From positions 13,768,273-13,832,272 of the forward strand of contig CM020510.1 of assembly GCA_009823395.1 (NCBI GenBank): DNA of 64,000 nucleotides, given 5' to 3'. Position 1 is the stretch's first letter; the number at the start of each line of letters is the position of its first letter. The notes beneath the pieces are model-generated. The model was not told the DNA's origin, did not search any database, and saw nothing but the letters and a program-made list of their open reading frames with translations. Source of the DNA: Thamnaconus septentrionalis (taxonomy: Eukaryota > Chordata > Actinopteri > Tetraodontiformes > Monacanthidae). Positions 1,915 to 42,600 of this stretch are shown piece after piece. A program made the position numbers and the translations under genes.

Positions 1915-4900
1915 ATGTTTCTTGAAGACGAAGACTGGGATGACGAACATGCGGGGCAGCCTTTGAGTAAAACTGTCACCAACATCCAGCAGGCGACCGG
2001 CGTCACAAATGTCAAGGTAAAAGCACATCCAGTGGCTAATGACGTAGCGGAAAGCTCAGGTTTAGCTTTCAGACAGAGGGAGAGGAAGAAAAGATAAACT
2101 ATAGTAAAACCATGTTTAAAAAATGACGCTCTGCATCACTGTCCAAAGTGGTAGGATGTAAATACAATTAGTGCACATCACTGCTCTTTGAATGCATGAC
2201 TTCCAGCAGGTTCTGCTTTCTAACTTTACTTCATGCCACTGAAATTATATAGTAATACAGTTACAACTTTGTTTCCATTTAATTATATTCCCAAAGTGCC
2301 TCTCTTTGAAGAGATTTAAAAGTAGACACTGTGGCTTCAATAGGATTGAACTATCTACGACAATGATTTTGTTTTGATCTGAAACCACAAAAAATGCTAT
2401 TGAAGGATCAGTTAAAATTCTGCTTAAGTTTATTCTGATGAGGTTTTGTTTACAGTTAAAGTAAATTAAATGCCAAGTGATGACCTTTCCAAATGGCATG
2501 ATGTGTGCATGCACATTGGTGTGTACATAATAATTATTTTGTTGATATATTTTGCTTTGAAGCTAGCATTTCATTTATCCACAGAAATCACTGCTAGTCA
2601 TAAACAGTTTGTTTTCCTTTGTTACAGATTTGTAGCTTGGATTTGGAAAAAAATGTATCCACAACACTTAAGATGGTTAGATTATCTCAACATCGCTGAG
2701 TCTTGTTTTGTCAGAGCTTAGATATTGCCCTTTCTGGGGGGAAAATGGTCTCATACCTTCAATTAAAAGCTAAAATCGTAATCTAAATATCTCCTCAAAC
2801 AGCTCAAGACTGTCAAAAAGAAGAGTCTGCTGCGAACGCTGAAGACTCTGGGTTCGGTTCCTGACTGGAAGAGCGAAGATCACCAGCAGGACAGCGACAG
2901 CGAGACTGAAGGGGCTCCAGCACACAAGAAGAAGAGGAAGAAGAAACGAAGCAAGAGGAGAAAGCCGTTGGAAAGTGCTGGGGAGCAGCCAGACGATGCA
3001 GACGTGGGAGCAAGCCTGGTGGAAGAACAACCTGAAGCCAAAAAGAAGAAGAAGAAATTAAACAAAGATGGTGAGTAATTCACTGGCTTGAGGTTTTGTT
3101 TTTTATTCACTTGTTGAAAGGTATAAAATCAAGTTGAGTTTTTTTTTTCTCTCTTTTGGGACAGCAAAGTTAAAAAATATCTCTGAAAACAAGACAAAAG
3201 ATAATAAAATTGCACAATCTTCCAAGGAGAATAAAGGGGAGCCAGAGAACACTGAAAGAGTGAGCAGGCAGCAGTGGAAAAACAAAATAAAGAACAAGAA
3301 GAAAAGTAAAAATAAATACAGACAAAATAAGCCTGAGGAAGCAGGAAAAAACAAAGAGTCTTCAGGGGGAATCGGGGCCAAAGAAGAGGTCAGAGCCGAG
3401 TCATCCAGCAACAACAGCTCTGAGAAGATCAGTCCGACGCCAGCCAAGAGAAAGGAAAAAGAATGTAAACCGCAGAAACGGAAAAACAGCGAAAAAGACA
3501 CTGATGCATCCTGTCCAACAAAAACAAAGACGGTGAAAGAGGAGAAGCAGATTCAGGAGGTGAAAAAAACAACAGATGGCGGAGCGAAAAAACGCGCAAC
3601 CGAATCATCTGTTGACGGATCGGGACAGAGAGTTCTGGAGATCACAGACGGTCAGCAGCAGCCTCCCACGAAAGGACTGAAACCCGAGCAGAGCAGGAAA
3701 CAGCGTCTGTTTAAAGAGAAGCTGCAGAAAATCCTGCGCGGCCAGGAAGCGGAGCAGCGGGACAGTCTGGCGGAGGCGAAAGACAAGCCGGCCGCTCCGG
3801 AGGAAGAGTCGCCGCCGGACCGCTCCGCCTCCCTCCGGTCCCGGATGGAGCAGCGGCTGGAGTCGGCCCGCTTCCGCTACATCAACGAACTGCTGTACAC
3901 CTCGTCCAGCGGCGAGGCCAAGCGCATGTTCAGGCAGGACCCGCAGGCCTTCTGCGTGTACCACAAAGGCTACACGGCCCAGGTCCAGAGGTGGCCCGAC
4001 AACCCGGTGGACAAGATCATCTCTTTCATCCAGCAAAAGTGAGAACACGCATTTATCCATCCATCTATTTTCAATACCCGCTTCTTCCTGAACTCAGGGT
4101 CACGGGGGTTTGCTGCAGCCTATGCCAGCTGTATTAGGGTGACGGCATGGTGACACCCTGGACAAGTCTCCAGTTCATCACAGGGCCACATAGAGATAAA
4201 AAGACAAACAACCGTTTCCAAAAAACAAAAAAAAACCAGCACGGGGTTGTTTAGCGACCCCCATTTAAAAGGCGTTTATACCAGTGCTTCCAGAACTGTG
4301 ACGTGCAGCGTGTGACACTGTACCTAATGTTTGTCAGGCCTGAGACAATCCCAATCCTAAAATATTCTACCACTAATCTGATGAGTTTGTAGGGGGCAAG
4401 GAGGGAGGTTTTTTTTAAAGTCAGTTATAACAGCCGAAAATCACAAAATATTTACATCATCATCACAGGATTCTCTGGTGTCTATATGCTGGCACTTAAG
4501 GCAACCCACATCTGTGAAAAAGAACAGAGGAGTACTTTATCTATGACAAGATAAAGTACTCCTCTCACAGCTACCCAGTGATAAGACAAAATCTGATACG
4601 ATTAGAGAGACAGCTCTTCATGTAATGCAGTTTTCATGTGTGTTTATGTGCATTTGTGCGTCCCTCTGGCGATACTGGGAACTTGTATCTTGCCTTTCCA
4701 TGCTCTGCTCTTGCGGTTCCAAAGTCCGGAAGGCCGTATTGTACTGTATGACCTTCCGAGACGTCTGTGGTTTTCTCGTACAGTCATATCGCCCACTACG
4801 GGCAGTCCACTAGTGCTGCGGTTGTGCACCTCCCTGCCAAACCATGTGCTTGCTGCAGGCACTGCACTAGTTCTTATTCAATTACAGCAACGGAAATGCT

Positions 4901-6103
4901 GTTTGTGACAGTAAGTTCTGAGTCCCCTCCAATGATACAACTTCCAAAGCTTTTCCCAAACGCTGGGCTTTTTGTGGATTATCAGCAATTGTATGCATGC
5001 AAACAACAGTTGATCATCTCAATATAAAGCCGTAAAGTCACACATCTCCTTCCCTGCAGGCCTCCGTCTCTGGTGGTCGCAGACTTCGGCTGTGGCGACT
5101 GTAAGATAGCACGCAGCGTGAAGAACAAGGTGCACAGCTTCGACCTGGCGGCCGTCTGCGAGCTGGTGACCGTCTGCGACATGGCTAAAGTGAGTTGCTT
5201 TCTCTCCTGTCTGCTCATCTGGCCTGCAACTCTGTGAAATTGTGAGGAAATCAGACACACGCGCTCCTCTCTGGTGCAGGTGCCGCTCGGGGACGCCTCC
5301 GTCGACATCGCAGTGTTCTGCCTGTCACTCATGGGAACCAACCTGGCGGACTTTCTGGCAGAGGCCAACCGTGTCCTAAAGATGGGGTAAAACTTTTCGT
5401 ACTGATTCTTCTTGCTTTTTGGGGTATCAAATGTAACGCTGAGTGCTTGTGCTCTTTTTTTTTTTTTAATCGTAGGGGTTTTCTTAAAATAGCAGAAGTA
5501 ACGAGCAGGTTCGAGAATGTGCGGAACTTCACTACTGCACTGGCAAATCTGGGCTTCAAGTTGGTTTCCAAGGTGAGGCAACAACAACAACATTAACAAC
5601 AACAACACAAACATGGCATCATCAGTGAGAGTTTTGCAGGTTTAGAGAAGTCATTTGTGTCTCCTAAAAGACTATGGTTAAATAATGAGCAGTCAGGTGA
5701 TAAATGGCAAGACTAATGACAAAAATAATTACATAATTGGATGTTCTCACCTTTACATTTTTCACTTTATCAGCTGTAACTTTCTTTCTTTGCTCATTCT
5801 TGCTTTACCTTCTTTCTGTACTAAGTTTTGTTTTTGTTTGTTTGTTCTTCTTGCTGGCACAAAGGGTGGATTTATTTTTAAAGATTCTGTTTTTAACAGG
5901 CTTCTTATGAAGAGACGTCAGAACATTGAGGTCCCCAAATGTGCCTGTAAATTACAAACCTACTGACATTTATTCTCCTCTTTCTTTAGGACACAGAGAA
6001 CACCCACTTCTTCTCCTTCGACTTCGTGAAGAATGGGAACGCTCCAGAAAATATCAAGAAATTTGGCCTGGAGTTGAAACCTTGTGTCTACAAGAAAAGA
6101 TAA
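1915..6103 (+). CDS. rrp8: Ribosomal RNA-processing protein 8 (nucleolar methyltransferase)
   Basis: RRP8 (nucleomethylin) is a nucleolar SAM-dependent methyltransferase that makes m1A in large-subunit rRNA and, in mammals, takes part in rDNA silencing. Coding exons, all joining in frame with GT/AG borders: 1915-2016, 2803-3070, 3165-4038, 5060-5189, 5280-5386, 5476-5572, 5990-6103 (predicted 563 residues; human about 456). The N-terminus [11 protein letters not shown] resembles the acidic vertebrate start. Exons 2 and 3 encode a long Lys/Glu-rich, probably disordered nucleolar-targeting region. The conserved domain begins late in exon 3 ([20 protein letters not shown]). The SAM-binding motif [10 protein letters not shown] is in exon 4, FCLSLMGTN and EANRVLK in exon 5, and the family C-terminus LKPCVYKKR ends exon 7. 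The start is the first ATG with this N-terminus. A possible AATATA poly(A) signal is near 6287. The gene looks intact; the extra length is in the disordered region. Confidence 0.95.
4046..4215 (+). repeat. Dispersed teleost repeat fragment, rrp8 intron 3
   Basis: Within intron 3 the stretch contains CAGGGTCACGGGGG, GGTGACACCCTGG and CATCACAGGGCCACA in that order. The same order of phrases appears inverted at 19750-19870 and partly at 35788-35850, so this is a family present at least three times here. It resembles a repeat that is very common in fish genomes; I cannot assign the class. Confidence 0.6.
4526..4565. repeat. Perfect 17-bp hairpin in rrp8 intron 3
   Basis: AGAGGAGTACTTTATCT at 4526-4542 is exactly complemented by AGATAAAGTACTCCTCT at 4549-4565, separated by six bases (ATGACA). 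In the rrp8 pre-mRNA this would form a compact stem-loop. The remainder of this 1-kb intron (4216-5059) shows nothing else I can name. Confidence 0.75.
5578..5608 (+). repeat. (CAA)n short tandem repeat
   Basis: About nine interrupted CAA/ACA units begin a few bases after the donor of the sixth rrp8 coding exon, inside the 417-base last intron. The rest of that intron is AT-rich with no other feature. Confidence 0.8.
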
Positions 6104-6518
6104 ATACACACCAAGGACTCTGTGTTTGTTTCTGTTTCTGCTACTTTCACATGGTTCTTGCACAGTTGTACGTGCTGTGAATGGATACATTGTGATTTCT
6201 TTTGTTTCTAATCACAGACTCTTGATAACTTGTTTCCATAAGGTTTCCTTGGTCACAGAGCTGTAATTGTGTGGGGAAATATGAAAAATATAAAATAATT
6301 GTTTTTTTTTTTTTTTAAAAAAAAAAATCTGATTGTATTTTGTTCATTTCATAAAAATGTTTTTAAAAAAAAAAAAACTTTGTTAGTTGTTAGTTTTTGC
6401 TGTGAGGATGTCACTGTAGTCCCAATTTAAGTGTGAACAGGTTCACTGTCTGTGTATGAATATATTTGAAACTGCTGCAAAACAGTCAACAAGGAACAAG
6501 ACTGTAAGAGAAAAAAAC
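6104..6518. other. Convergent 3' UTRs of rrp8 and the multi-Ig gene
   Basis: This AT-rich stretch lies between the rrp8 stop and the poly(A) signal of the minus-strand gene. It carries several A/T homopolymer runs (6300-6328, 6361-6376). The two transcripts probably end here tail to tail and might overlap. Confidence 0.6.
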
Positions 6519-6729: not shown

Positions 6730-6994
6730 TCACACTGAGCTCTTGACGTCGAGGACGATGGCGTAACTGAAGTCGCCGTCGCCTGTCATCACCGGCGGCT
6801 TCTTCACCTCAGGGGACCCGGGCTGCTGCATCAGAGATGTCAAAGCTGCCAAAGCCTCCTGCTCCTGGGTCAGAGTGCAGCTTTTCATTGCGGTGTCAGA
6901 GTTCAGAATCAGAAAGATGGGATCAAGAAAGAGCAAAACGAGGAAAGGCAGTGAATTTGGACTAACCTTGTACTGTCTTCTCCTGCTTCCTTTC
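6730..6994 (-). CDS. Multi-Ig receptor cytoplasmic tail exons
   Basis: A 28-base exon (6967-6994) encodes a basic stop-transfer stretch (KGSRRRQYK), followed by the last exon (6730-6864). I chose the acceptor CCCAG|GAG at 6865 because it keeps phase 0; a nearer-upstream AAAAG would break the frame unless a weaker donor (GTACAA) is used. The tail contains GDFSYAIVLDV, a YxxV motif, and ends KSSV, which fits a class I PDZ-binding C-terminus (S/T-x-V). The tail is unlike the neighbouring nectin, which ends EWYV. Confidence 0.75.
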
Positions 6995-9105
6995 CTGCAC
7001 ATGAAATAGAGAAAACGATATCAGCGCACTCTTCTCCCCCGACATACGTAATTTTACAAACTTGTAATGCTGAAATGCATCACTAGATGGCACTGTGGCC
7101 AAATCTGACACGCCAAGTCACATTCGGAGGAATGTGGCTTTGTCGAAACGTGACAGGAATATTTGAGAGGATGAGCGTTGACCCGAGCCCTCGTCATTGA
7201 TCTGTGATCTCAGGAGCAGCACACGACTTTGTGCATTACGAACCCGGCGACGTCAACAATCTGAAGATGCGCTCCACCCCTCAAGGTTATTGATAAAAAT
7301 AGCTTTGATCCCTGGAAGTCATGCGCCCCTGTGCACGGACTGCGACTGACCTTCCACATTTAGCCTGACAGCGGCCTCCCCACGGATGAGCGATAATGAA
7401 ACAGAGGCCTCACTGAGCAAAACGGCACCCGAAACCATCTGACTGATTTCTTTTTTTTCTTTTTCTTTTTTTTTGAATAACCCAACGCTGAACGACTGCT
7501 GCGCTACAAAGTGCATTTGCCTGTGATCGTCGTGACCCTGACCAACATTCCTGCGTGCAGCAAAAATCCGTCAGGGGACGGAAAAAAATGGCAGGAAAAT
7601 GCGACAGACGCTCGTAAAGTGGGGGAACGACTCAAGTGATGAACTCAACATTCTCTCTGATTAATGAGCGTCTGAGTTTCCTCGGAGCCGTGATCTTAGG
7701 AAGGTGTGGATTCTGCTGAACCCCTTTACCTTTGTTGATCTAAAACGTGGAAGTCGGGAGAATGAGCCAGATCGCAGCGAGCTCCCTGACAGAGTGCCAG
7801 AAGAAACAGTGCTAAAAGTCAAGAGAAGGAGGCTCTCAGCACCAGAGGGTGGTGGAGGTGGTGGTGGAGGGGGAGCGGGGAGGATATTTTCTACCTGCCT
7901 GCGACGAGCACGACTGCTGCGGTGGCACACACGCACCTGTCTGTTACAGCCGATACCACTTCCTGTTTTTCTTCAATTCTGGGGCTTCGGTGATTCACAC
8001 ATCCTGTTTTTCTCGTACTACATTTTTTTTCTTTTTTTTTGGACACCTTCGCCCTCGATTGCCAGCCGAGCTGCAGAGGCTTCGCGACTCACCGGCACAC
8101 CCAGAGGACGGCGAGCAGGACGATGAGGACGGCCGAGCCCGAGGAGATTCCCACCATGGTCACCAACCCTGAGAGAAAGACGACACTTGGTCACGACGGT
8201 TGCCAGGGTGGCTGCAGGCCTCGGCACGTTTCTCTCCAATGTAAAGGTGTCAACACTCACCGAACAGCTTTTCGTCACTCATCACCTCCACCAGGAAGCT
8301 GACCGTGGCGGTGTGGTGATAGAAGGATGCCCGGCAGCTGTACACGCCTGCGTCCCGCTCCCTCACCTTCTCCTCAAAGACCATGGCCGACTCCTCCATC
8401 GGCATCGGCGTGCCGTCGCTCCTGACACAGAAGCACATTATAGTGTGAGCATGTTTTGTTTTATGTTCTTTTTACATCCGATTCACTTATTTATTTTTTT
8501 GGTATTATTTATCGGGCCGTATGATTCCAAGCCTGTCTGCCACAAGCCAATAGAAACAGCGTAATTTCAAAAAATGCACACGAGCCGTGACACTGGTTTG
8601 TTTTCTTTGAAAGAGCCATTAAAAAAAAGAAGACTGCTGCTCAGACTTCTTCCTGAGGTCAAAGTTGGAGCAAATTCAGAGTCTGACACCAGGGCAGAAT
8701 TTGCTGCAGGAATAGAATATATATTGCAAACAGACACATATGTCGTCTGAAATGTCATGAAACATTCCCCCTTTTATTTTCCCTATCACTCAGGTTAATA
8801 CCAATATAATAAAGTCACTCAACAGGTAGTCGCTGAACCGAACTGTCTGGTTCACACTCTCACGCTCTACCTTTGAGAATAAATCTGTCAGCCATCATAA
8901 AGACGTTCAGAGCCTTTCCTGCTTGTCATTATAGCCAGCCAGGACAAGAGGGTTAAAAGATCTACACGCAGACAAACACATTTCATAATGCGTAGCGACC
9001 GTGCTTCGTCCTCATCGTTCATAGTTCAGATTATTTATTGCAATGGGAAGGAATCTGTTTTTGAAGTGAGTCTTTTAGGGAAAGAATACAGCACACAGGT
9101 GCCTC

Positions 9106-9163
<58 letters not shown>

Positions 9164-12100
9164 CGACAGAAGATACCTTCTGCAGCTGAGGTTGCGCTCT
9201 GGCACGTTGCCTTCCACTTGGAGCAGGACTCTCTGGTTGCGAAGATTTTCCTGGAGCGTCAGCCGACGCACGGCGACGCGCTGGCGGTCGTGGCGGCTCT
9301 GCAGAGGAGTCGTGTAGTTTACGACTCTCACGGCGGAGATGTCTGCGGAAGATCCACGCAGCGTCTCTCAATTTCGCGTCTGGTTGACCGATTCCAGGGC
9401 TCGGCGCGAGAACGGGCTGACTTACAGTATCTGGGGATCTGGACGGTTCTCTCCTCCTTGGTGCCACGCCCGTAGTGATGCACGCAGGTCAGGTTCTGGC
9501 CCTCGTGCAGGGCCAGGCTGAAGCTGTACGTCAGTCGGGCTCTCGGCACGTGGCCTTCGTACTCGGACTGCATGGACGTCTGACCCCTGGCGCTGTCGGG
9601 AAGCACCCAGGCGAGGTTGGTCCCGGCGTTGCACTCGCACACGGCCAGCCAGAGGGGGGAGTCGTGCTTTCTCTCCACGTGCACGTTCAGCGGACGGGCT
9701 TCTGGGAAAGACAACAGCGGGGGTGACGGGAAGAGGACAAAAAGGCTGCCGGTCAAGGTTTTTTTTTTTGCATGTGTGACACGAGGAAAGAGTTCTGTGA
9801 AAAAAAGGGGGAAATAAACACACTTTGCTCAGGAATGTGTGTGGTTCTTTTCTCCGGCGCCCTCAGGCTGTGGTGCCGCACCATGCAGGTCAGATCCTGG
9901 CCTGAGTACAAGGACGATAACAAGCGCACGGAGCTGCGGGCCAAAACCCGACCGTCACCCAGGTCTTCAGTCGCCGACACAGAACCCAGGGTGCTGCTGC
10001 TGCTACTGCTGCTGTTGTCATTCTTCCCGACATGCCAGGTGATTGCAGCAGCGGGGGCCTCGCTCTCCACCGAGCAGTCCGCCTCTGTGTACTCCTCGTC
10101 GTCCTCCCACCTGGAGCCCGAGCGGAAGGTGACGTTCGGAGGGGCTGCGTGGGATAAAAATAGACAAGTTTCTGTCTGGATGCAAGATAAAAATCTACAG
10201 CACTCTCACCAGAGCTGGCAAAATATTCACATTCTGTACTAAAGTAAAAGTACAGATACTAAAAAAAAGAGTACTGATTCAACTCCTTTACTTAAGGTTC
10301 TAAAATGTTTTATGTAAAAATGTTTGTTTTTTTTGCCATTAATGAAACAATACATTTGCAAAAATGAAAGCTCCCGTACTCTCAATACTAAAGTTTTTTT
10401 TTCTTTTTCAACTGCAGCACAACCAAACTGTAATCGCCAATGGTTACAGACCAATGAGCCATTATTGCATGTTGACACTTTCAATAACAATAACCAATAT
10501 TATCTTCTACATTTTTAGAAGATGACCCAAAAGCCAAAATAATCTCCCAATAGAGTGTCATCTACTTTTATATTTAACTGCTCAACTGCATAGTTCAAAT
10601 GGCTCCACTTTAAGCAACAGCAACAATGATAAGTGGATTATTTTGAACAGAATTTATAGATTTTAAACACTTTTAAACACAAAAGTAGCGAGCATGTTTG
10701 TTTGTTTGTTTTTTCAATGTAAGAAGAATAAAGTACAGATATTTGTGTACAAATGTAGGCAGTAAAAGTAAAAAGTCATTCGGCAAACAAATACTCAAGT
10801 AAAGTACTTTGTTACTTCCCCCCACTACTGACGCTCGCACAGTCAAAATGCGTGTTGCCGCAGAGAACCAATCGAGGGATTAGTGGAACGTACCGCACAT
10901 GGGGAGCATCACACTCCTGTTCTGCGGGGCCTGGAAGGCTGGGTGATTTATCACGCACAGGGCCGTGTTCTCCCAGGGCGGGCAGGCCGGGAGCAGCAGG
11001 ACTCCCCGAACGGAGTGGCTTCCATTACGAGAAGTGGAATTGAACCAGGAGGTTGCGGACACGCCCTCCGGCAGGAGCCAGGACACGTTGGCCGCGGGAA
11101 CGGCCCCGGCTGCCGAGCACACCATCAGCCAATGTCCGTCCTCGGCCCGCAAATCAACGGCTATCGTCGGAGGAACTGTGAGAGCGAGTTTCCAATTCAA
11201 TGTGTCATACTCGGGCCGCACGTAAAACTTTTTATGATGTCATCGTAAAAAAAAAAAAAAAAAAAAAGCGGGGAGAGAGAGCCAGGCATACCGAGGAGGG
11301 TGACGCGAGGTCTGACTGTGATGTTGAACTTGAGCGCCGCCTGGATGTGGTGATAGGAGGCGACGCACTCGTACTGGCCGCCGTGCCGAAGCTCCACCGG
11401 AGCCCGGACTGTGAGGCTGCTTCCAGTGACCTCCACGCCGTCAGGCAAAGGCTCGCCGTCTCTGTAAACGCACCAAAAGAGGAGTTTCGTGCATGGGTTC
11501 AGGCAAGCGGTGCAGGTAAATCATTATTTGTGATCAGCAGCATCTAAATCTGGTTCCTGTCTGTCTGTCTGTGTCTGTCACCTGTGGTTGGATGCCACAG
11601 ATGGTGTAACCACATCCCGTACACAACGTATAAGGTTGCTTTCGTTCAGTAATGCATGTGAGAAAAAAAGTACCCTTGTTGTTGGATTAAACTCTTTGTT
11701 TCTAGGTATTACAGGCTGGGAGCCAGCAGACGTTTGAAGGGGGGGAAAAGAGCTTTGCACAGAGTGATTTGTGGAAAATTGTCGCTTGATCTTTCGTTTT
11801 GCATGGATTTCTCCGTGCCTTCCTTACCTTTTGCAGGAAACGTTATAACCTGGCACGTATCCAACGACCTGCAGGCCAATGACGACGTCACTCTCCTGTC
11901 CTTCATGCATTCCCCATGAGTCTGCACTCTGGAAGTCAGAGCTCACTCCCGGATCTGAGCTCCACAACTGGACCGCGGACAAATCTGCAGAACCGGAAAG
12001 AAAGCACATCTGTGTTTTCTTCCGCAAACTCTCGAGAGTCCAAATGAGAAAGGCGATACTCACAGAAAGACGGCAAGGTGGCGACCCGGTGCTCCGTGTG

Positions 12101-15100
12101 CGAGAATTTGGGGTGTTGGAACACACAGGTGACGTCCTGCCCCTGGTACTCCGCTGCCGGGAGGACGGCCGTGTGTTTCTGAGTGTATGAATCCGAGCCG
12201 GTCTCAATCTGCACATCTTCATCGGTGGCTGGCTCCAAGTGGATATAGGTTTCTGGTCTACCTCCGGACGAGATGCAAGAGACCACCCAGAAATCACGTC
12301 CTCCTAGTTCTTCCATGTCTACTGTAATGGTCACATTTGGCTTTGCTGCAAAGCAGGAAGAAAGGCAAAGCAGAGATTGTCTTTCCTGGGGCCCCAAGTT
12401 GTTGTTGTTGTTTATTTTTCCGAACAAATTAAAAAGTCAGACAGTAAAATTGAGGCTTTGGGTGTTTTGGTTGTAAAGGGAAGCAGCAGCCGGATGATCT
12501 GGGCTGAACGGCGGCTAAACACAAGGCCCGCGAGGGGCTCCGGCGTGGTTTTTTAGCGCTGACTCCAGCTTATCACCTGTCCCATCTGTTGGCTGAGCCG
12601 GCGCTCAGAGCAGATGTCTGGCCCAGCTGCTGTCCGAACCAGAGCTGAGCGAGTCGCACTCTTTAATAGTGGGAATCAGCGGAGATCAGAGTCTATTATC
12701 AAGCAAATTAAAGTCGCGATGCCGCGCAAAAATGAGTAGGAGACGCGAGCTAACGCCTCATTATGGCTCAGCGGCCGGGGAAGGCTTTGAAAGGAACAAT
12801 GCACTTTGGCTCAGCGTGGGTTTAACCACTGCAATCGCGTGACATAATTGCATGTCTCGCGCTAATAGGATCGCCACACAGTAGGCAAACACAATATTCA
12901 GTTTGTGGAGTCGACTAACGTCACGCCGCACGCAGAGGCGCTGAACCGATTGGTTTGTATCCCCGCCCTCTGTTTTTTTTTTCTCTGTTTGTGCGGAACA
13001 TCAAAAGGCCCACGTGTGGGTTACGAATGTGGTAGTTTTTTTTTTCTTGCTACGCACGTACAACTCACGACACGAAGATGTTTTTGCATCACTTTGGTTT
13101 GAGGCGTTAACGTTTGTCTGTCCCTACGGTTGCGTATTTCAGTTTTATCTGCATCATCTGGCCGGCTGCGAGTTACACAAACAAGTTGTAAACGCTTCAC
13201 GTTCTATTCTTGAGTGTTTTCCTGTTGATGCAGTTTTTTTTCTCTCTCTCTTATCTTTTCCTGTTTTCTGCCTTTTCAAAGTTTGCAACGACACTAATCG
13301 ATCAGCTGAGGGAGCCTCTTCTGTTCGGAGGGCGCAATCGCATTTTTGCAACCTCCACTTCGGTGCACATTTAAGCAAAGTGCAATCTTACCGTAAGTTT
13401 CCACCGTCACGGCGGTGACTTTGTCCTCGTGGAGCGTCGGGTGCTGGACGGAACAGGCCACGCTGTCCTCGTCCTGCAGGTGGGTGGGGAAGCGGAGGAC
13501 GCTGCTCACGGTGGAGGTTCCGTTGGAGTGGTGCGCGTTGCTCACGTCGACAGTGAAGGGGTCCCCTGAGACGGGGACGCCTTTCACCAACCAGCTGATC
13601 TGAGCCTGAGGTCTGCCGGCGACAGCGGAGCAAACCACCGACTGGTAGTGGACGCCGTCCAGGGTTTCAGTGTTCAACTGGATCAGGATTTCAGGGCGAG
13701 CTGCGAATATGAAGATACTTCAATAAAGCATGCAATGCACAAGCTGTTGAAGTGTTATGTGGAGAAGCTCATCAGCAGTCCCCAAACAACACCCTCTGTT
13801 GGGTTGGAGTCAAATTTTTGAGATTTCAAGATGGATTTCTCGCAGATTCCAGGTTCCAATCTAAATTGTGATTGGAACACATTGAGAAAACGACACGACC
13901 GTTCAGCCAAACAGGTAGCTTCGGTCAGGGTTTAGTTACGAAGGAAAACAAAGAGCTTCTGCTCGCTTGTAAGTGATGCTAGCTGCGACGAGGATAGTGA
14001 AGTTTTTCTTCTTAAAAAACGAGCAAAAGCTTGAATAGTTTTGTTCAGCTCCTCACAGACCTTGAAACACTTTTGAGTTAACATCAAAGTGCGCTGCGGT
14101 CTGTCATCCCTCCCAGTTTATTTCTTCTTCTATTTTTCTCCTCATCTTCTGTGTTTCGACGCACATTCCATCGGGCGTGTTGTGTTATGCTCGGGGGGCC
14201 GCCGACCTTCATTGGGCCTCACCTACTACGGTGACGAACACGCTGTAGGCGTAATCATCTTCCTCACGCGCGAACTGGCACTTGTACTCCCCCTCCACCT
14301 CCACGCTGGACACGCTGGCCACCACCGTGAGGTTGGTGATGGAGTCAGGCTCAGAGAAGCCAAAGCGGCCGAACGGCTTCCCGTTGGAGAAGCCGGCCAG
14401 CCGCCTGGACGTCCCTCTGGAGTTGATCTGGCGCTTCCACTCGGAGCTCTGGAGGTCGCTCTCCTCTCCCAGGTATCTGCAGCTCAGGTAGACCTCCTCT
14501 CCCAGGAAGGCTGTGACATTTTGCGTGAACTCAACACCTGGACGTGGGAGGAAGACAATGAGGACTTGGATTAACCGGAGGAGGTCTTAAAAAAGTGCAA
14601 GCACAAGCAGAGCAGGAATGTCTTAAGAGGGGGAGTGTGATTGTTCCCTCCCGCTGCAAGCATGGACGTTGAGCTGATAGATGTCCGTTGACATTCCACG
14701 CGTCCTATTGTCTTTTCAGCGCTCCGATGAAACTGTGATGGATGAGCCGGGCCGACCAGCTCACTGGTCATAAGCTTCACAGTCATTTCATCATAATTAG
14801 AACGTGCCAATGGTGAATCAATACGAAAGACAAAGAGTCCGACGTCACGCTACCTCGGCTTCGGGGCTCGGCGGTGTTGCGCTTTACATGCACGCAATTA
14901 CGATGAGTAAGATGCTGACGTGCGGAAGGCACGGAAGTGCGCGTCGCTTGAGTGCATTTGGATGTAAACTTCAGCTAATAAGCACCGGAGAAAATGCTGA
15001 TAAGAGGCATTTTAGGCTAAAAAGTGATTATGTCGGCAACAATTGAAATGCACTTCCATCTAACCGAGGTTTACTTGAAAAGCACAGTGACATCAAAGCA

Positions 15101-15588
15101 TCAGCGTCATCTGGAAAGAGATTATTGAACTATAATATGCTTCAGACATTTCACAATTACATTTGAACAAATAACCAGATAACCAGCAAGCATATGGAGA
15201 TGAACTCTCTGCCTATCACAAATGTGTGAAAGAGATTTCAGCACCACACATTGAGAATGCTTTCTCTTGACAAATATCAGCCCAAAAAATTAAAAAAAAT
15301 AAAGGAGAATAATTGCAAAAAGCATTGTAATAAACATGGTCCGATAAAATCTCCACCAGCGGAACCCTGCTGGACAAGACTTTGTGCAAACAGTCAGCAA
15401 ATGTGCCATTTCCAACTCCATTATGTTGATAAAATGTAAACAGTCCAAAAGTGACACCCTGATCCGTCCTCGGCGCTGATGACCTCCGCTTCCAGCAGGG
15501 GGAGGGGTGCATCAGAGGAGAGGACATTTAATAGAGGCTGACAGGTTTTAGCACTTGGAGCGAGGACACACAGGCACACACCCACACA

Positions 15589-15638
<50 letters not shown>

Positions 15639-16749
15639 GCTGACTGTCAAAGTGCACCTGAGGACACTGTTTGCTCTGCTGTTTCACACAAATTCACAAA
15701 CTCCCACTCTAATGTACATGAGGAGTTGACTACACACTTCGCTGTTGCACCCCATCATGCATGTGTGTGCGTGCAGGCTTGTGAGTAACCAGCTGCAGCA
15801 GATGGATCTCTGTGCATTAAAAGCCATTAGCCGGGGGAGGCTGCCGGTCTTGCTATACATCACAGCAAATAGAAACAATGTGGAGCCTCTGGAGTCTTTT
15901 AAGGGGAAGAACACAATGGGAGAGAAATAAACACGCTGTATGGCTTCAATTATGCCTTCTGGCTCCATAATTCATTCAACCCTGCGGGGCTGCAGCGGGA
16001 ATAAATCTGAGCCGAGCGCAGACCAAGCACACCTTGAGGACGGAAACTCAGTCATAGCTGGGAAAGACATCAGGTATTCGTGTCGTGCGTCACTTTTCCT
16101 GAGTCCATGGAGGCTCCCTGCTTTGTTTTGGGATTTTTTTTTCTCAGCAGAAAACAGCCACTGAGCTGTGGCGCGACACGGCTCCTGCCCTTGCAGACGG
16201 GGGATGTGGTAAACAAATAGAAGTTTCATTTCTGAAAAAAAGTCTCTTCAAGTTCACACTGTTAAGCTTTCATCTCCCGCTGGAAGCCTCTTTGAGTCGG
16301 CAGAAACGAAGGCGGAGAGGGATCTTTAAAGATCCGAGGGTTTTCCCCTTACACACAGAACAAAGCTAACAACCGTCATATATTAGCTTTAAAGTGCCGT
16401 AAAGAAACGCACGTGGCTGCAGGCGGCGCCCCTGATCGATGACAATAAACAGTGGAATCAATACCGGCTTGCCATTGGCAAAGATAAGGCAGGAGGGAAA
16501 GTACATTCGGAATCTTTCAGGCGCGATCCTGCATGTGGCTTTGTTGGCTCCGTGTGACAATAACCTGGATCCATCATTGAAGGCAACCTTAGTGTGAAGT
16601 TAAAGAGGACCTTAAGGGGCCAGTAAATGGGCCCATAAAGAAGTGAAGTGTCACAGAAAGAAGTGCAGCCCCGCGGACTCACCTGGAAACTCCGAGCAGT
16701 GAGCGACAGCCAGGACCAGGCCCAGGGTCAGCAGCACACAGCATCCCAT
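6730..16749 (-). CDS. Nectin-like receptor with eight Ig domains (unnamed)
   Basis: Fourteen coding exons in transcript order: 16683-16749, 14223-14537, 13392-13700, 12064-12345, 11828-11984, 11292-11461, 10894-11175, 9824-10144, 9426-9701, 9177-9342, 8261-8421, 8093-8168, 6967-6994, 6730-6864. Every junction has GT/AG borders and keeps frame, giving 914 residues. Layout: signal peptide 1-20, V-set D1 (23-127), C-like D2 (128-230) and D3 (231-324), split I-like D4 (325-433), C-like D5 (434-527), D6 (528-634), D7 (635-726), split I-like D8 (727-835), transmembrane helix about 838-859, tail of about 55 residues. Whole-domain exons have phase 1-1 borders, so domains can be duplicated or skipped cleanly. 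The C-like domains carry the nectin domain-2 signature around the second cysteine (for example CVFQHP, CSVQHP, CVINHP, CMVRHH). Many N-glycosylation sequons are present. The function is inferred to be cell-surface recognition in the nectin/PVR group; no characterised gene with this layout comes to mind. Confidence 0.85.
6995..8092 (-). other. Multi-Ig receptor intron between TM and tail exons
   Basis: Contains a T/C-rich run (7447-7474) and a GGT/GGA-rich stretch (7848-7878). Open frames on the plus strand here are antisense or low complexity. No exon is supported. Confidence 0.6.
8093..8168 (-). CDS. Multi-Ig receptor transmembrane exon
   Basis: A 76-base exon (phase 1 in, phase 2 out) encodes LVTMVGISSGSAVLIVLLAVLWVCR, of which about 21 residues form one uncharged membrane helix ending in Cys-Arg. 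There is no charged residue in the helix, so pairing with an ITAM adaptor such as DAP12 is not suggested. Confidence 0.85.
8261..9342 (-). CDS. Multi-Ig receptor D8, split Ig domain with moved cysteine
   Basis: Two exons, 9177-9342 and 8261-8421, joined in phase 2, together 327 bases like D4. The B-strand position is Leu (codon 9221-9223) and the C-strand Trp position is Cys (codon 9182-9184, NLSCRR). The second half has DAGVYSCRASFYHH, matching GGQYECVASYHH of D4. The domain is membrane-proximal. A (CA)n tract (transcript sense) begins about 14 bases after the first-half donor, in the 755-base intron. Confidence 0.8.
9109..9162. repeat. (TG)27 microsatellite, next to a splice donor
   Basis: Uninterrupted TG units; in the receptor transcript this is a CA tract beginning about 14 bases past the 5' splice site of the first D8 exon. 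Confidence 0.95.
9426..9701 (-). CDS. Multi-Ig receptor D7, nectin domain-2-like
   Basis: One 276-base exon, phase 1-1. Core residues are WLAVCECNAG, LAWVLPDS and QNLTCVHHYG. There is an extra cysteine two residues after the first. The end (VQIPRY) leads into ISAVRV of D8 as the end of D3 (ATLPSF) leads into LSAVQL of D4, so D3-D4 and D7-D8 look like a duplicated two-domain unit. Confidence 0.85.
9824..10144 (-). CDS. Multi-Ig receptor D6, nectin domain-2-like with Ser tract
   Basis: One 321-base exon, phase 1-1, the longest of the C-like exons. Core residues are TEADCSVES, AITWHVGK and QDLTCMVRHH. An interrupted CAG/CTG triplet repeat (9991-10017) is translated as a run of about seven serines between the C strand and the later strands. 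The donor is AAA|GTGTGT, a weaker site than its neighbours. Confidence 0.8.
10211..10830. repeat. Dispersed DNA-transposon-like repeat
   Basis: This fills most of the D5-D6 intron of the multi-Ig gene. It has phrases such as AAGTAAAAGTACAGATAC near one end and AATACTCAAGTAAAGTAC plus GTTACTTCCCCCCACTA at the other, which resemble a widespread fish non-autonomous DNA transposon family. The ends are only imperfectly inverted and I see no clear target-site duplication. Confidence 0.5.
10894..11175 (-). CDS. Multi-Ig receptor D5, nectin domain-2-like
   Basis: One 282-base exon, phase 1-1. Core residues are WLMVCSAAG, VSWLLPEG and NTALCVINHP. Two extra cysteines (LLPACPP and LPMC at the end) could form an additional disulfide or link to a neighbouring domain. 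Four sequons are present (NVS, NST, NGS, NRS). A 21-base poly-A/T run lies just upstream in the intron (11247-11267). Confidence 0.85.
11292..11984 (-). CDS. Multi-Ig receptor D4, split Ig domain with moved cysteine
   Basis: Two exons, 11828-11984 and 11292-11461, joined in phase 2, together exactly 327 bases (109 residues), the same as D8. The split falls after NVSCKR and before DGEPLPDGVEV, the same point as in nectin domain 3 (FTWIR | LDG). The usual B-strand cysteine is Leu (codon at 11872-11874) and the usual C-strand Trp is Cys (codon at 11833-11835). The F-strand cysteine is kept (GGQYECVASYHH). The intron between the halves (11462-11827) contains a few TCTG units near 11556 and nothing else evident. 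Confidence 0.8.
12064..12345 (-). CDS. Multi-Ig receptor D3, nectin domain-2-like
   Basis: One 282-base exon, phase 1-1, the same length as D5. It has VVSCISSGGRP and QDVTCVFQHP; the C-strand tryptophan is replaced (TYIHLEP). It is followed directly by the first half of the split domain D4, as D7 is followed by D8. Confidence 0.85.
13392..13700 (-). CDS. Multi-Ig receptor D2, nectin domain-2-like
   Basis: One 309-base exon, phase 1-1. Canonical residues are SVVCSAVAG, ISWLVKG and DSVACSVQHP. The cysteine followed by a two-residue gap and HP is typical of the second domain of nectins and PVR. Its flanking introns (12346-13391 and 13701-14222) hold no other feature I can support. Confidence 0.85.
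14223..14537 (-). CDS. Multi-Ig receptor D1, V-set domain
   Basis: One 315-base exon, phase 1-1. It shows the B-strand cysteine (VYLSCRY), the C-strand tryptophan (QSSEWKR) and the F-strand EGEYKC. Sequons NVT and NLT are present. The N-terminal part resembles a nectin V domain (compare TQSSWDRR in the neighbouring nectin), but the region after the second cysteine reads QFAREEDDYAY, without the TFPxG motif that nectins and their receptors use for head-to-head binding. Confidence 0.85.
14538..16682 (-). other. First intron of the multi-Ig gene
   Basis: A 2.1-kb intron between the signal-peptide and V exons. It holds the (CA)n tract at 15566-15636 and otherwise unique sequence. The stretch near 15800-15970 and 16560-16680 is balanced in composition and free of simple repeats, so first-intron regulatory sequence is possible but unproven. 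Confidence 0.6.
15566..15636. repeat. (CA)n microsatellite
   Basis: About 30 CA units with two CCCA interruptions at the start, in the first intron of the multi-Ig gene. Confidence 0.95.
16683..16749 (-). CDS. Multi-Ig receptor exon 1: signal peptide
   Basis: The ATG at 16749 opens MGCCVLLTLGLVLAVAHC, a compact hydrophobic signal peptide with a small-residue end, followed by SEFP and the donor CAG|GTGAGT in phase 1. Phase 1 after the signal peptide is the usual arrangement for Ig-superfamily genes. No other in-frame ATG with a better context lies just upstream. Confidence 0.8.
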
Positions 16750-38714: not shown

Positions 38715-39369
38715 TCAGACGTACCACTCCCTGCGCGAGATCACGGACCCGTCCAGGTGGGACACGTAGTCGCTGTCCGTACCGTTGTCGTAGCAGTCCT
38801 CCGGCAGGTAGGGGGAGCCGTTGTTCACCATGGGGCTGTGCACGGGGGGCCCGCAGGGGTGCATGTTCTGGGTGTTGTAGTGGTCGGGGTAGTAGTTTCC
38901 CTCTTTGAGGCCCGCGTGCGGGTCGCCCCGGTCGGCCCAGTCGTCCCGGTCCTTGCGCTCGGGCGTGTAGTCCGGGTAGATGATGTCGCCGCCCAGCTTG
39001 GGCTTCAGGTCCTGGCTGCCCTTGCTGGTCTTGTCGCCGTACACCTCCTGCAGCTCGTGGGGCTGCAGCACGTCCAGCTGCGACTCCTTCTGCATGTCGG
39101 AGGGCCCCAGGTACTGCTTGGTGTAGTAGTCGCCCCGGAAGGTCCGGCGCTTGCGCATGAAGCAGGCGCCGCCCAGGATGAGCAGCAGCGCCAGGAAGAG
39201 GACGCCGCCCACGGCGCCGCCCACGATGGTGCCCAGGCTGCTCTCGGGCAGGGAGGCCAGCGTCGGCGAGGTGAAGAGCGACTTCCTCTGGTCGGCGGCG
39301 GTGCCGCGCGCGACGTGCCGTGGGCGGGCGGCGGCGTGGTGCTGGGCGCCGACGTGGTCGGGGGAGGAT
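38715..39369 (-). CDS. Nectin-like last exon: stalk, membrane helix, tail
   Basis: In the frame set by the preceding exon the stalk reads [18 protein letters not shown], which matches the DPP-Thr start of nectin-3 stalks. The membrane helix ([20 protein letters not shown]) and the roughly 145-residue tail ending EWYV lie in another frame. One missing base between about 39290 and 39350, a GC-rich run, would explain this. EWYV is the afadin PDZ ligand of nectins. Confidence 0.75.
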
Positions 39370-39672: not shown

Positions 39673-42600
39673 AAAAGACAAAGAGCGATCGAGCGACCGA
39701 AGACGTGCACTGCGAGCGTCTGAGTGAGCGTGACCGGCTTCTCCCTCCGAACCCCCCGGTGCGGCCGAGTCATGTGAGAAGATGAAACCCTGCGTGATCG
39801 ATTCCAGTTTCCTGCATCTGATTTGTTCTCCGGTGGCTGGAGCCTGCCAGGGTTGGAGGCAGAGGAGGAGGGGGAGGGGCTGCGCCGAGCTATCACTACG
39901 CTCAGGATAAGCGTCTCCGTTTTGACCTCTGGGCTCCGGCAGCTCGGAGGAGCCTGACACCGCCGGTCGATTCCTGCTCAGACACATCGAGGGGCCGTCT
40001 TGACGGCGGAGGCGACGTTCAAGTCCCGCTAACGGGAGCAGCTGCGTCTTTAAGCCGTTTTGGGCAGCAGCGACTGAAAGCAAATTTATTCTCGCTTGGC
40101 ACTGTGGATTCTTGCATTCTTTGCCTTGCCAACCTTCAACAGACAGCGTTTTTAGTCTTAAGATTTCATCGTCAGCGTCAGCAAGAAGGAGCCCATCCAA
40201 GATGGCCCAAAAAAGCAAAGAGTGATCTGGAAAAAATACCAGAGACTAAAAGAAGAAGCTACTGCAAATTATAAACAATGATCCACAGTTTACCGTGGAT
40301 GTGGCTATAGCAGCAGTTTGTTTTTTTTTCTTTTTAAAATAGTATGTCTCAAAGCATAAAAACAACAATGAAGGCTTTTCTCTGTAGACAACAGTGTTTC
40401 TTCCCTTTGGACTGGTTTTGGCAATAGTGCCATGAAACAGTAGCTGCGTTTCAGTACAGTTTTTCGCAAAATAAAAGCGATATTTCGAAAATTTCGACAA
40501 AGTACAATTGCGATTTGCAGGTGTTTCCATCGAAGTGCATTGGCCGGAATTCTCGTAAAATCTCGTCCTGCGAGATCTGTAACTGCGAAAGTGTTTCCAT
40601 GACACTTTCGCGATACGCCTCTATATCAATACGTCTGAAAAACCACCTCATGAGAGCGTAAAGACCTTTTTCAAAGTTTAGGTGTTTCATTTTTTTATTG
40701 TGATATTTACCATTTAAGCAATTTTAGGGGTAATGGAAACACAGCTAGTGTGGTGCACGGCAGCCAACCACGGGGGCGGGGACACGTGGATTATGTCACG
40801 GCATTCACCAATTGGGAGCCTTTAGCTGTAGCGACCGGGCCAAAACTGGTGCTAACAACTGTAACCAGTCCTTTCCAATGTGACGAACAGATGGTTTGTC
40901 CAATCACTTTCCAAGCTTTCCTCAAACGCTCTTCACGGGCTCTTCGCCAGGCGGATGCGTGTCAGAGGAGTTAAAGGATTCGGGAAATGCTCCAGTGGCG
41001 TGCCAGGGTAGAACAAATTCCACCGATTCGCGGAATGGATCCGCAGCCTCATTATCCGCGGCTCTACATCGCGGTTGAAGGTAAAGGCCCGAGAGAGGAC
41101 AATGAAGACGGATCAATGTCAGCAAACTGATGCGCTGGCATCTGCCTTCCTCTGTCGGTCGTGTGTCGCACCCCTGCAGCGCGACACTTTAACCTCGCAC
41201 GGGTTACCAACATCTGCAGCCACGTAGGCGATCGCGCACGCGAGGAGCTGCCAAAAACCACAGGGCTGCCCGGGGAAGAGGGGGTGGGGGCGAGGATGAG
41301 GCAGCTCCGCCAAGCAGGCGCGGAGGCGGTGGTGGGGGGTCCATACTGAGCTCGACCGGACGGTTTCCACAGGGAGGAAGTGAGACGCTGCGTGCCCAAA
41401 GTCTCGATATCTGACAAGCAGGGCAAGATAATTGCCCGGCGCAGGTCCGTCCAGCACAGGATGTCAGCTGTGCTTTCATTTGCAGCACAAGTCCAAATAG
41501 GGGGCTTTTTTTTTTTTTTTTTTTACGCAGATGCATCTTGACAGGCATTTTTTTTTTTTTTTTTTTTTTCCTTCGGGTGGGGGAAAGGCGGGGGGGGGCT
41601 CCTCTGACTCTTTTCCGCTCGACAGTGAGAAATACAACATCTCTTTAAAGCCGCTGTTGCTTTGTTTGGAACGGGATGAGAGGGGAAAGAAGAAGCGAAA
41701 AAAAGAAGCGATGCTCAGCTCCCAGGGAGCCACGCCCTGGCTTTAGAATAATAAACATTTAGACAGGCAGAGGACGCTTTCAAACCTGTTCCAGTTCTGC
41801 CTGAGGAGGCTTTACGCTGCTAAACAGTCGGCGTTTAACCCACTCGGGAGCAGGGAAACCCCACTGATTCAGGGAATTCCCATCTCAGGCTAATCGGGTT
41901 TGAATCTGGGCAGCGTTTAAGTGTAATTCACCCAGACAAAACCCTTTGGGAACAATCAAATGTTTAGGATCAAACTGCAGGAAATGCATGTGTACTGCAC
42001 AGCCACGACCCACCGTGAACCTCCCCCACCCCCCCTGCAAGAAAACCAAAGCAAAGGTCTACGTGGGTGCATGCATTGTGGAACAAGCAAGGGTACGCAC
42101 CCACTTCCTTATCTATGAAATCTAATGTTGCCAAAACCACAACAGCAAAAGTGTTCAGTGCTCTTAATCTGCACTTTGTACTGCCGCTTTGCCAGGAATG
42201 TGTGAAAGTGGATCCGGTCGCGGGCATTTGTTTTGAGGCTTAGGGCCGCTTAGGGCGATGAATGGGGAGCGGATTCTATCGATTGCTTTTAACCTCGGAT
42301 GCCAAGCGATATTTACTTAGTTTAAAAGGAGCACTTGTTGTATCTGACGAAGCGGAGCGGAGGCATCAACGCACCTTGGACCCAGAGGTTGACGTCTTGA
42401 CTGCGGAGGCCAATGTCGTTCAACACCTCGCAGCGGTAGACGCCCGAGTCGTTGCGCTCCAGGGGCCGGTTGAAGGCGAAGGTGTTGTTGGAGATCTCCA
42501 CGCCTTCGGGCATCGATCCGTCCAACCTGGGCAAAAAACAAACCGTGTGTTAAAAGTGTACGCAGAAATATTCAGATTTTCATTAAAAAAACTAAATCCT

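Follow-up and report, generated by a model that had tools for sequence, protein, structure and literature searches.

The nectin/poliovirus receptor (PVR) group combines cell-junction molecules with the mammalian TIGIT, CD226 and CD96 checkpoint axis. In three papers on the group, its vertebrate members have three immunoglobulin (Ig) domains at most (PMC7286890, PMC5966540, PMC12066663), and the nine human nectins and nectin-like proteins are three-domain proteins (PMC7286890). A 64,000-nucleotide stretch of the Thamnaconus septentrionalis genome (contig CM020510.1, positions 13,768,273 to 13,832,272; hereafter the window) contains a gene whose predicted product has eight Ig domains, D1 to D8. 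This raises the questions of whether this eight-Ig gene is real, from which family it arose, and what kind of receptor it may encode.

A conserved fourteen-exon gene of teleost fish

Rebuilding the minus strand of the window from 16749 to 6730 joined 14 exons into one open frame of 914 codons and a stop (Table 1), in agreement with the coordinates and the 915 codons given in a preliminary description of this DNA. All 13 introns are bounded by GT and AG, the remaining five frames of the joined exon sequence contain 8 to 36 stops each, and the third-position guanine-cytosine content of the coding sequence is 78%. Each Ig domain encoded by a single exon is flanked by phase 1 introns at both ends, and a phase 2 intron interrupts D4 and likewise D8. 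An AATAAA signal lies approximately 206 bases past the stop codon. The encoded protein has a signal-like start, 15 glycosylation sequons and a single strong membrane helix, whose 19-residue peak starts at residue 841; the preliminary description had likewise given a membrane helix and a short tail. Pfam assigns V-set to D1 and C2-set_2 to four stretches, and every Ig domain has at least two cysteines, with three in D7 and four in D5.

A search of 5.8 billion proteins, in which the 8000 candidates sharing most words were scored, returned 115 matches, such that comparison with other proteins, as the preliminary description had proposed, did find teleost relatives. The top match among those scored, P0001 from the filefish Nelusetta ayraudi, shows 93% identity across 95% of the query, and identities to 23 other teleost proteins range from 40 to 64% over the alignment. 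Every species named among the 115 matches is a teleost, with four matches carrying no name. A profile search gave 149 matches, and the best 120 of these are likewise teleost wherever named. Querying with D1 to D4 alone, so that shorter proteins could also qualify, returned 13 matches, two of them weak or unrelated (P0146, P0147). The eight-Ig gene thus ranges over fish from a catfish to pufferfishes; no zebrafish or other cyprinid protein was present among the matches listed (the best 120 of 149 for the profile search, some names being absent or cut).

We can accordingly say that the preliminary description was right to hold that chance would not easily give such a chain. None of 20,000 random joins of equal exon lengths on the same strand was open, and the coding exons occur once in the genome, all within the window. 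It is the conservation, above all the Nelusetta protein, that gives decisive support to the exon chain being real and that in effect refutes its being a chance or dead assembly, an explanation that we find scarcely credible. When the genome was searched for a second eight-Ig copy, all 13 matches fell within the window (C10:13768273-13832272) and a second copy was therefore rejected; as far as this search shows, the gene is single-copy.

The order of domains was compared in 148 proteins, namely 147 found proteins and that of the window, a set that includes isoforms and partial models and does not represent 147 species. The exact order D1 to D8 was present in 111 of them, the window's protein included. 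Four proteins have an extra nectin-3 head, nine, all salmonid-named, lack D5, and the remaining 24 comprise partial, altered and unrelated sequences. As the D5 exon is phase 1 at both ends, it could be skipped in frame, which may account for the salmonid forms. The protein P0139 of the catfish Neoarius graeffei has the order D1-D2-D3-D4-D6-D7, again without D5. D5 is nevertheless the most conserved domain, with a mean pairwise identity of 0.74 versus 0.55-0.66 for the others (31 of 32 aligned proteins), so that the domain missing from nine salmonid forms and the catfish form is the one otherwise best kept. One unusual model, P0115 from Centroberyx affinis (683 amino acids), joins D1-D2 to a long repetitive IPSPAVQ stretch with its end listed under PF16064, and is likely a gene-model or transposon fusion.

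Many relatives carry the placeholder name si:ch211-149e23.4, and among the rest the labels hemicentin, synaptogenesis protein syg-2, nectin-2 and poliovirus receptor occur, indicating that automatic naming has not settled the identity of the gene. The preliminary description had called the receptor unnamed, and this stands insofar as no characterised receptor of this layout emerged, although gene predictions for many teleosts already include it under its placeholder. No paper was found when the placeholder was searched by name in the open-access literature, the subscription literature being outside the scope of that search, and no eight-domain nectin appeared in the titles and abstract openings of open-access literature on the topic. 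According to PMC7286890, zebrafish and other ray-finned fish have nectin relatives that are still unassigned, and one of its tables includes, as a possible ancient homologue, a starfish protein of nine Ig domains; an eight-domain fish form is not mentioned in the portion consulted. The gene is thus already in databases under a placeholder, and its eight-domain nectin-type layout differs from that of the three-domain vertebrate nectins.

Descent from the nectins and departures from them

The profiles of the eight domains (21-23 rows per domain after P0111 and P0097 were dropped) were compared by hhalign with each other and with those of nectin-3 (four rows). This revealed that D1 matches nectin-3 D1 with a probability of 95, and that D2, D3, D5 and D6 match nectin-3 D2 with probabilities of 85-97, a class that D7 joins through D3 and D6. 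D4 matches nectin-3 D3 with a probability of 97, D8 does so with 85 in one direction and 65 in the reverse, and D4 and D8 match each other with 99.5. The domain string V, C, C, I, C, C, C, I of the preliminary description therefore holds as to its eight Ig domains, but the label "I" does not, as the domains so labelled belong to the nectin domain 3 class. In D4, in D8 and in D3 of nectin-3, the comparison being made with the nectin-3 gene of the window only, an intron of phase 2 splits an Arg codon directly before (L/-/S)DG. This shared intron is the strongest single mark of nectin descent.

A nectin-3 gene stands directly upstream of the eight-Ig gene on the same strand, and the ectodomain of its product matches human nectin-3 with 252 bits and nectin-1 with 186. 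Together, the three nectin domain classes, the shared domain 3 intron and this tandem gene establish the affiliation, so that on the sequence evidence the eight-Ig gene is a nectin derivative and belongs to the nectin/PVR group by descent, as the preliminary description had proposed. With its neighbour (and human nectin-3, PDB 4fom) it shares the D1, D2 and D3 classes, phase 1-1 V and C exons, the phase 2 intron at the same codon of D3, the same-strand tandem arrangement and a PDZ-type C-terminus. Nectin-3 in turn has three Ig domains, all three V-domain motifs discussed below, the canonical C-W-C of D3 and a long tail ending in EWYV, an afadin ligand.

Affiliation with the group did not extend to any one member. 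The preliminary description had listed clear orthology to a named family among the outcomes that would overturn it; a profile of eight full-length relatives instead matched human nectin-3 and nectin-1 in the PDB equally (84.7 and 84.0 bits), ahead of PVR (72.7), nectin-2 (50.6) and nectin-4 (38.1), and D1 showed no preference, such that no named family can be designated as the ortholog. With the window protein as the query, PVR was the best single-stretch match (39 bits). CD276 had topped that first PDB list by having two repeated stretches scored, and fell behind nectin-1, nectin-3 and PVR when the profile was used. PVR resembles the eight-Ig family in having a tail with an immunoreceptor tyrosine-based inhibitory motif (ITIM) and isoforms with and without it (PMC7286890, PMC5966540), and differs in having three Ig domains, no PDZ end and a range reported to be confined to placental mammals (PMC7286890).

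The best hhalign partners of D6, D7 and D8 are D2, D3 and D4, respectively, which suggests a copied block D2-D3-D4. We propose that a nectin-type gene beside nectin-3 had its D2 and D3 exons multiplied, and that the layout D1-(D2-D3-D4)-D5-(D6-D7-D8) probably arose by copying of the block D2-D3-D4 to D6-D7-D8 and addition of D5.

The eight-Ig family also departs from the nectins beyond its number of Ig domains, which is eight versus three in the nectins proper. The V-domain motif set named for the nectin/PVR group in PMC12066663 includes T(F/Y)P, (V/I)(S/T)Q and AX6G. Among 137 proteins, the D1 F-G loop was recognised in 120, and none of these loops contains T(F/Y)P, versus all four nectin-3 heads of the fused models described below. 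Similarly, neither [VIL][ST]Q shortly before Trp nor AX6G was present in any of 23 D1 rows (P0111 and P0097 again dropped), versus four of four nectin-3 D1 rows for each; bare [VI][ST]Q occurs in one of the 23 D1 rows and in none of the four nectin-3 rows, where LTQ or similar is found. In D4 and D8, the B-strand cysteine is lost, a cysteine occupies the position of the C-strand tryptophan of nectin D3, and the F-strand cysteine is kept. Across the 148 proteins, 135 D4 and 118 D8 domains were recognised; the shifted cysteine is present in 134 of the former and in all of the latter, and none of 255 motifs has the B-strand cysteine. The one deviating D4 comes from P0076, a model in which D3 is duplicated. 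This arrangement implies a putative disulfide between strands C and F, a bond predicted from the alignment only. In CD4, an unrelated receptor, the disulfide of domain 2 similarly joins strands C and F. PMC3352085 describes the unusual inter-strand bond of that domain as allosteric and reducible.

Tail, splice forms and possible function

The family tail consensus ends SKEYAQLxSYSIVIDVKSTV. In the set of 137 proteins, 124 have a PDZ-type end of the form [ST]x[VILM], here a sequence motif only, and in 101 of them this end is STV. The ITIM consensus [VILS]xYxx[VIL] is present in 100 tails, and a YxxL-type motif lies just ahead of the ITIM in 82. The window tail, which reads FSYAIVLDVKSSV, retains a PDZ-type SSV end and YxxV. 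Use of an acceptor at 6880 instead of 6864 would give a protein of 893 amino acids with a frame-shifted short tail, and the Nelusetta protein P0001, annotated as "isoform X2", has this very tail, one residue apart. The PDZ-type end is lacking in 13 of the 137 proteins, several of which stop just past the membrane helix.

In four protein models, which come from Labrus bergylta, Oryzias latipes, Oncorhynchus nerka and Oncorhynchus gorbuscha, domains D1 to D3 of nectin-3 run on in frame into D1 of the eight-Ig protein (clusters P0036, P0079, P0113 and P0116; three fish lineages). The fusion point coincides with exon ends, leaving out both the nectin-3 membrane exon and the eight-Ig signal exon, and the same fusion in the window, from 42375 to 14537 on the minus strand, would stay in frame. 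Recurrence in three lineages is suggestive of real RNA, with shared gene-prediction habits as the alternative, and recurrent read-through splicing between the two genes is possible.

Taken together, the exon chain with its open frame, the assignment of the domains to nectin classes, the adjacent nectin-3 gene and the conserved tail are observations from which we infer receptor function, and we consider it reasonably probable that the eight-Ig gene encodes a nectin-derived, long-reach adhesion and signalling receptor. Its V-type head would be held far off the membrane by a rod of seven domains and would bind a partner on another cell through an interface other than the T(F/Y)P lock-and-key. Contact would be relayed by the tail tyrosine motif, ITIM-like in most relatives, with signalling being inhibitory if this motif recruits SHP phosphatases, and the last tail residues would anchor the receptor to a PDZ scaffold. 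Splicing probably sets the output, given the annotated forms without tail motifs and those with a nectin-3 head annotated in some fish.

Several observations weigh against parts of this reading. Compared directly, D7 matches nectin-3 D2 with a probability of only 3-6, and the best hhalign partner of D3 is D6 and not D7. In a tree of the domains, each of the eight forms one group, and the block pairs are neither supported nor rejected: D3 groups with D7 with support of 78/69, while D2+D6, D3+D5 and D2+D3 are each not rejected. A block copy of D2-D3-D4, tried by tree, was thus neither shown nor rejected. The D1 profile is weak overall, its top PDB match being a 48-residue stretch of titin (33.9 bits), followed by nectin-1 (32.3) and with DCC at 26.7. 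The window tail reads FSYAIV, has no V, I, L or S at position -2 and has lost the upstream YAQL, such that a strict ITIM is absent. Finally, faulty gene models may account for the forms without a tail and for the fused ones.

The retention in the window of a PDZ-type end without an ITIM is what would be expected of a pure adhesion or junction molecule, bound to a scaffold through its PDZ-type end as nectins are to afadin and using its tyrosine YxxV for endocytosis, with no inhibition. The PDZ-type end is also the most widely kept tail feature that we counted, and the nectins themselves bear PDZ-binding ends according to PMC7286890. Nevertheless, a residue suited to an ITIM occupies position -2 in 100 of 107 proteins with a YxI core, which would seem to be more than a sorting signal needs, and the STV end is unlike the EWYV end of the neighbouring nectin-3. 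We consequently regard pure adhesion as a serious but doubtful alternative to a receptor that both adheres and signals.

An explanation that overlaps with the adhesion and signalling receptor is that the gene is the fish counterpart of CD96 (Tactile), an inhibitory lymphocyte receptor for nectin-family ligands, and that both go back to one ancestral gene beside NECTIN3. In mammals, CD96 stands 3' of NECTIN3, and the eight-Ig gene occupies the same-strand place directly 3' of nectin-3. NECTIN3 is placed at 3q13.13 in a table of PMC8672115, and CD96 is described in PMC5966540 as having a 45-residue tail with an ITIM and a proline-rich tandem. Most relatives of the eight-Ig gene likewise have a short tail with an ITIM-like tyrosine; the proline-rich tandem, however, is not in the family tail consensus. 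Mouse CD96 keeps an FTLYPEG stretch, present in a peptide given in PMC3352085, whereas no T(F/Y)P-like loop was found in the eight-Ig family. CD96 has three Ig domains and a stalk, versus eight Ig domains here. The D1 profile scores CD96 at 18.1 bits, behind nectin-1, TIGIT (25 bits), nectin-3, nectin-4, PVR and CD226, although these are weak scores of one domain; having no preference for CD96, CD226 or TIGIT, it did not establish a CD96 identity. The ILK/APBB1 and P4HA3/UCP2 neighbours, partly named by eye, belong to human chromosome 11 and not to 3q13. A CD96 counterpart is on these grounds improbable. We would also call unlikely, though worth stating, that teleosts have here a checkpoint-type receptor whose head can be exchanged: its own V domain would have moved off the nectin lock-and-key, in-frame read-through splicing that bypasses the nectin-3 membrane exon and the eight-Ig signal exon would set a complete nectin-3 head on the eight-Ig rod with its signalling tail, other splicing would remove the tail, and the whole could replace CD96 in fish.

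That an eight-Ig relative is conserved and lies in tandem with nectin-3 shows how the nectin/PVR group was remodelled outside mammals, and the receptor becomes a candidate, open to testing, for the fish part of the checkpoint axis. Two neighbouring genes might, moreover, share one ligand-binding head through splicing.

Feature coordinates and neighbouring genes

Table 1. Positions within the window of the exons of the eight-Ig gene and of features of the adjoining genes.
Feature	Position	Strand	Remarks
Exon 1	16683..16749	-	Start codon and signal peptide; ends phase 1
Exon 2	14223..14537	-	D1, V domain, nectin D1 class; phase 1-1
Exon 3	13392..13700	-	D2, nectin D2 class; phase 1-1
Exon 4	12064..12345	-	D3, nectin D2 class; phase 1-1
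Exon 5	11828..11984	-	D4 first half, nectin D3 class; phase 1 to 2, ends within Arg codon
Exon 6	11292..11461	-	D4 second half; phase 2 to 1
Exon 7	10894..11175	-	D5, nectin D2 class; phase 1-1; four cysteines
Exon 8	9824..10144	-	D6, nectin D2 class; phase 1-1
Exon 9	9426..9701	-	D7, nectin D2 class via D3 and D6; phase 1-1
Exon 10	9177..9342	-	D8 first half, nectin D3 class; phase 1 to 2, ends within Arg codon
Exon 11	8261..8421	-	D8 second half; phase 2 to 1
Exon 12	8093..8168	-	Membrane helix
Exon 13	6967..6994	-	Cytoplasmic tail begins
Exon 14	6730..6864	-	Remaining tail, ends FSYAIVLDVKSSV then stop 6730-6732
Alternative-acceptor addition	6865..6880	-	16 bases, frame shift; tail without tyrosine and PDZ motifs
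Nectin-3 V-domain exon	50813..51163	-	Upstream end approximate; STFPLG kept
Nectin-3 D2 exon	46343..46642	-	Phase 1-1
Nectin-3 D3 first half	44813..44930	-	Phase 1 to 2
Nectin-3 D3 second half	42375..42526	-	Phase 2 to 1; in-frame join to eight-Ig exon 2 possible
Nectin-3 membrane and tail exon	38715..39200	-	Upstream end approximate; ends EWYV
Convergent Methyltransf_8 gene	3092..6104	+	Methyltransf_8 86.6 bits in 3092-4039 frame; last exon ends 6104

The eight-Ig gene stands tail to tail with the Methyltransf_8 gene, which is RRP8-like. Beyond the latter lie frames for ILK (121 bits over 55 residues, ankyrins summing higher over several repeats) and APBB1 (145 bits). On the other side, nectin-3 is followed by four olfactory-type receptor frames, a gene for the alpha subunit of prolyl 4-hydroxylase (103 bits to P4Ha_N, and P4HA3 by eye), a C2CD3-like frame (by eye, with no Pfam match), UCP2 (179 bits), a CAMKK-like frame (by eye) and a 14-3-3 gene. 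As these outer neighbours sit on human chromosomes 11 and 17, and NECTIN3 and CD96 adjoin on 3q13, only the pair of nectin-3 and the eight-Ig receptor resembles the mammalian pair.

A second nectin gene, at C4:5262519-5267043, is 61-67% identical to the window nectin-3 in its first two domains. The frames downstream of it are RTN2-like and PPM1N-like by eye, neighbours that point to nectin-2; the locus was therefore dropped as a twin of nectin-3 and is probably nectin-2. No eight-Ig match was found in the 40 kb beside it. Upstream of nectin-3, at C10:13850659-13859856, four near-identical olfactory-type receptor frames stand in tandem, with 7tm_1 detected in the one that was tested.

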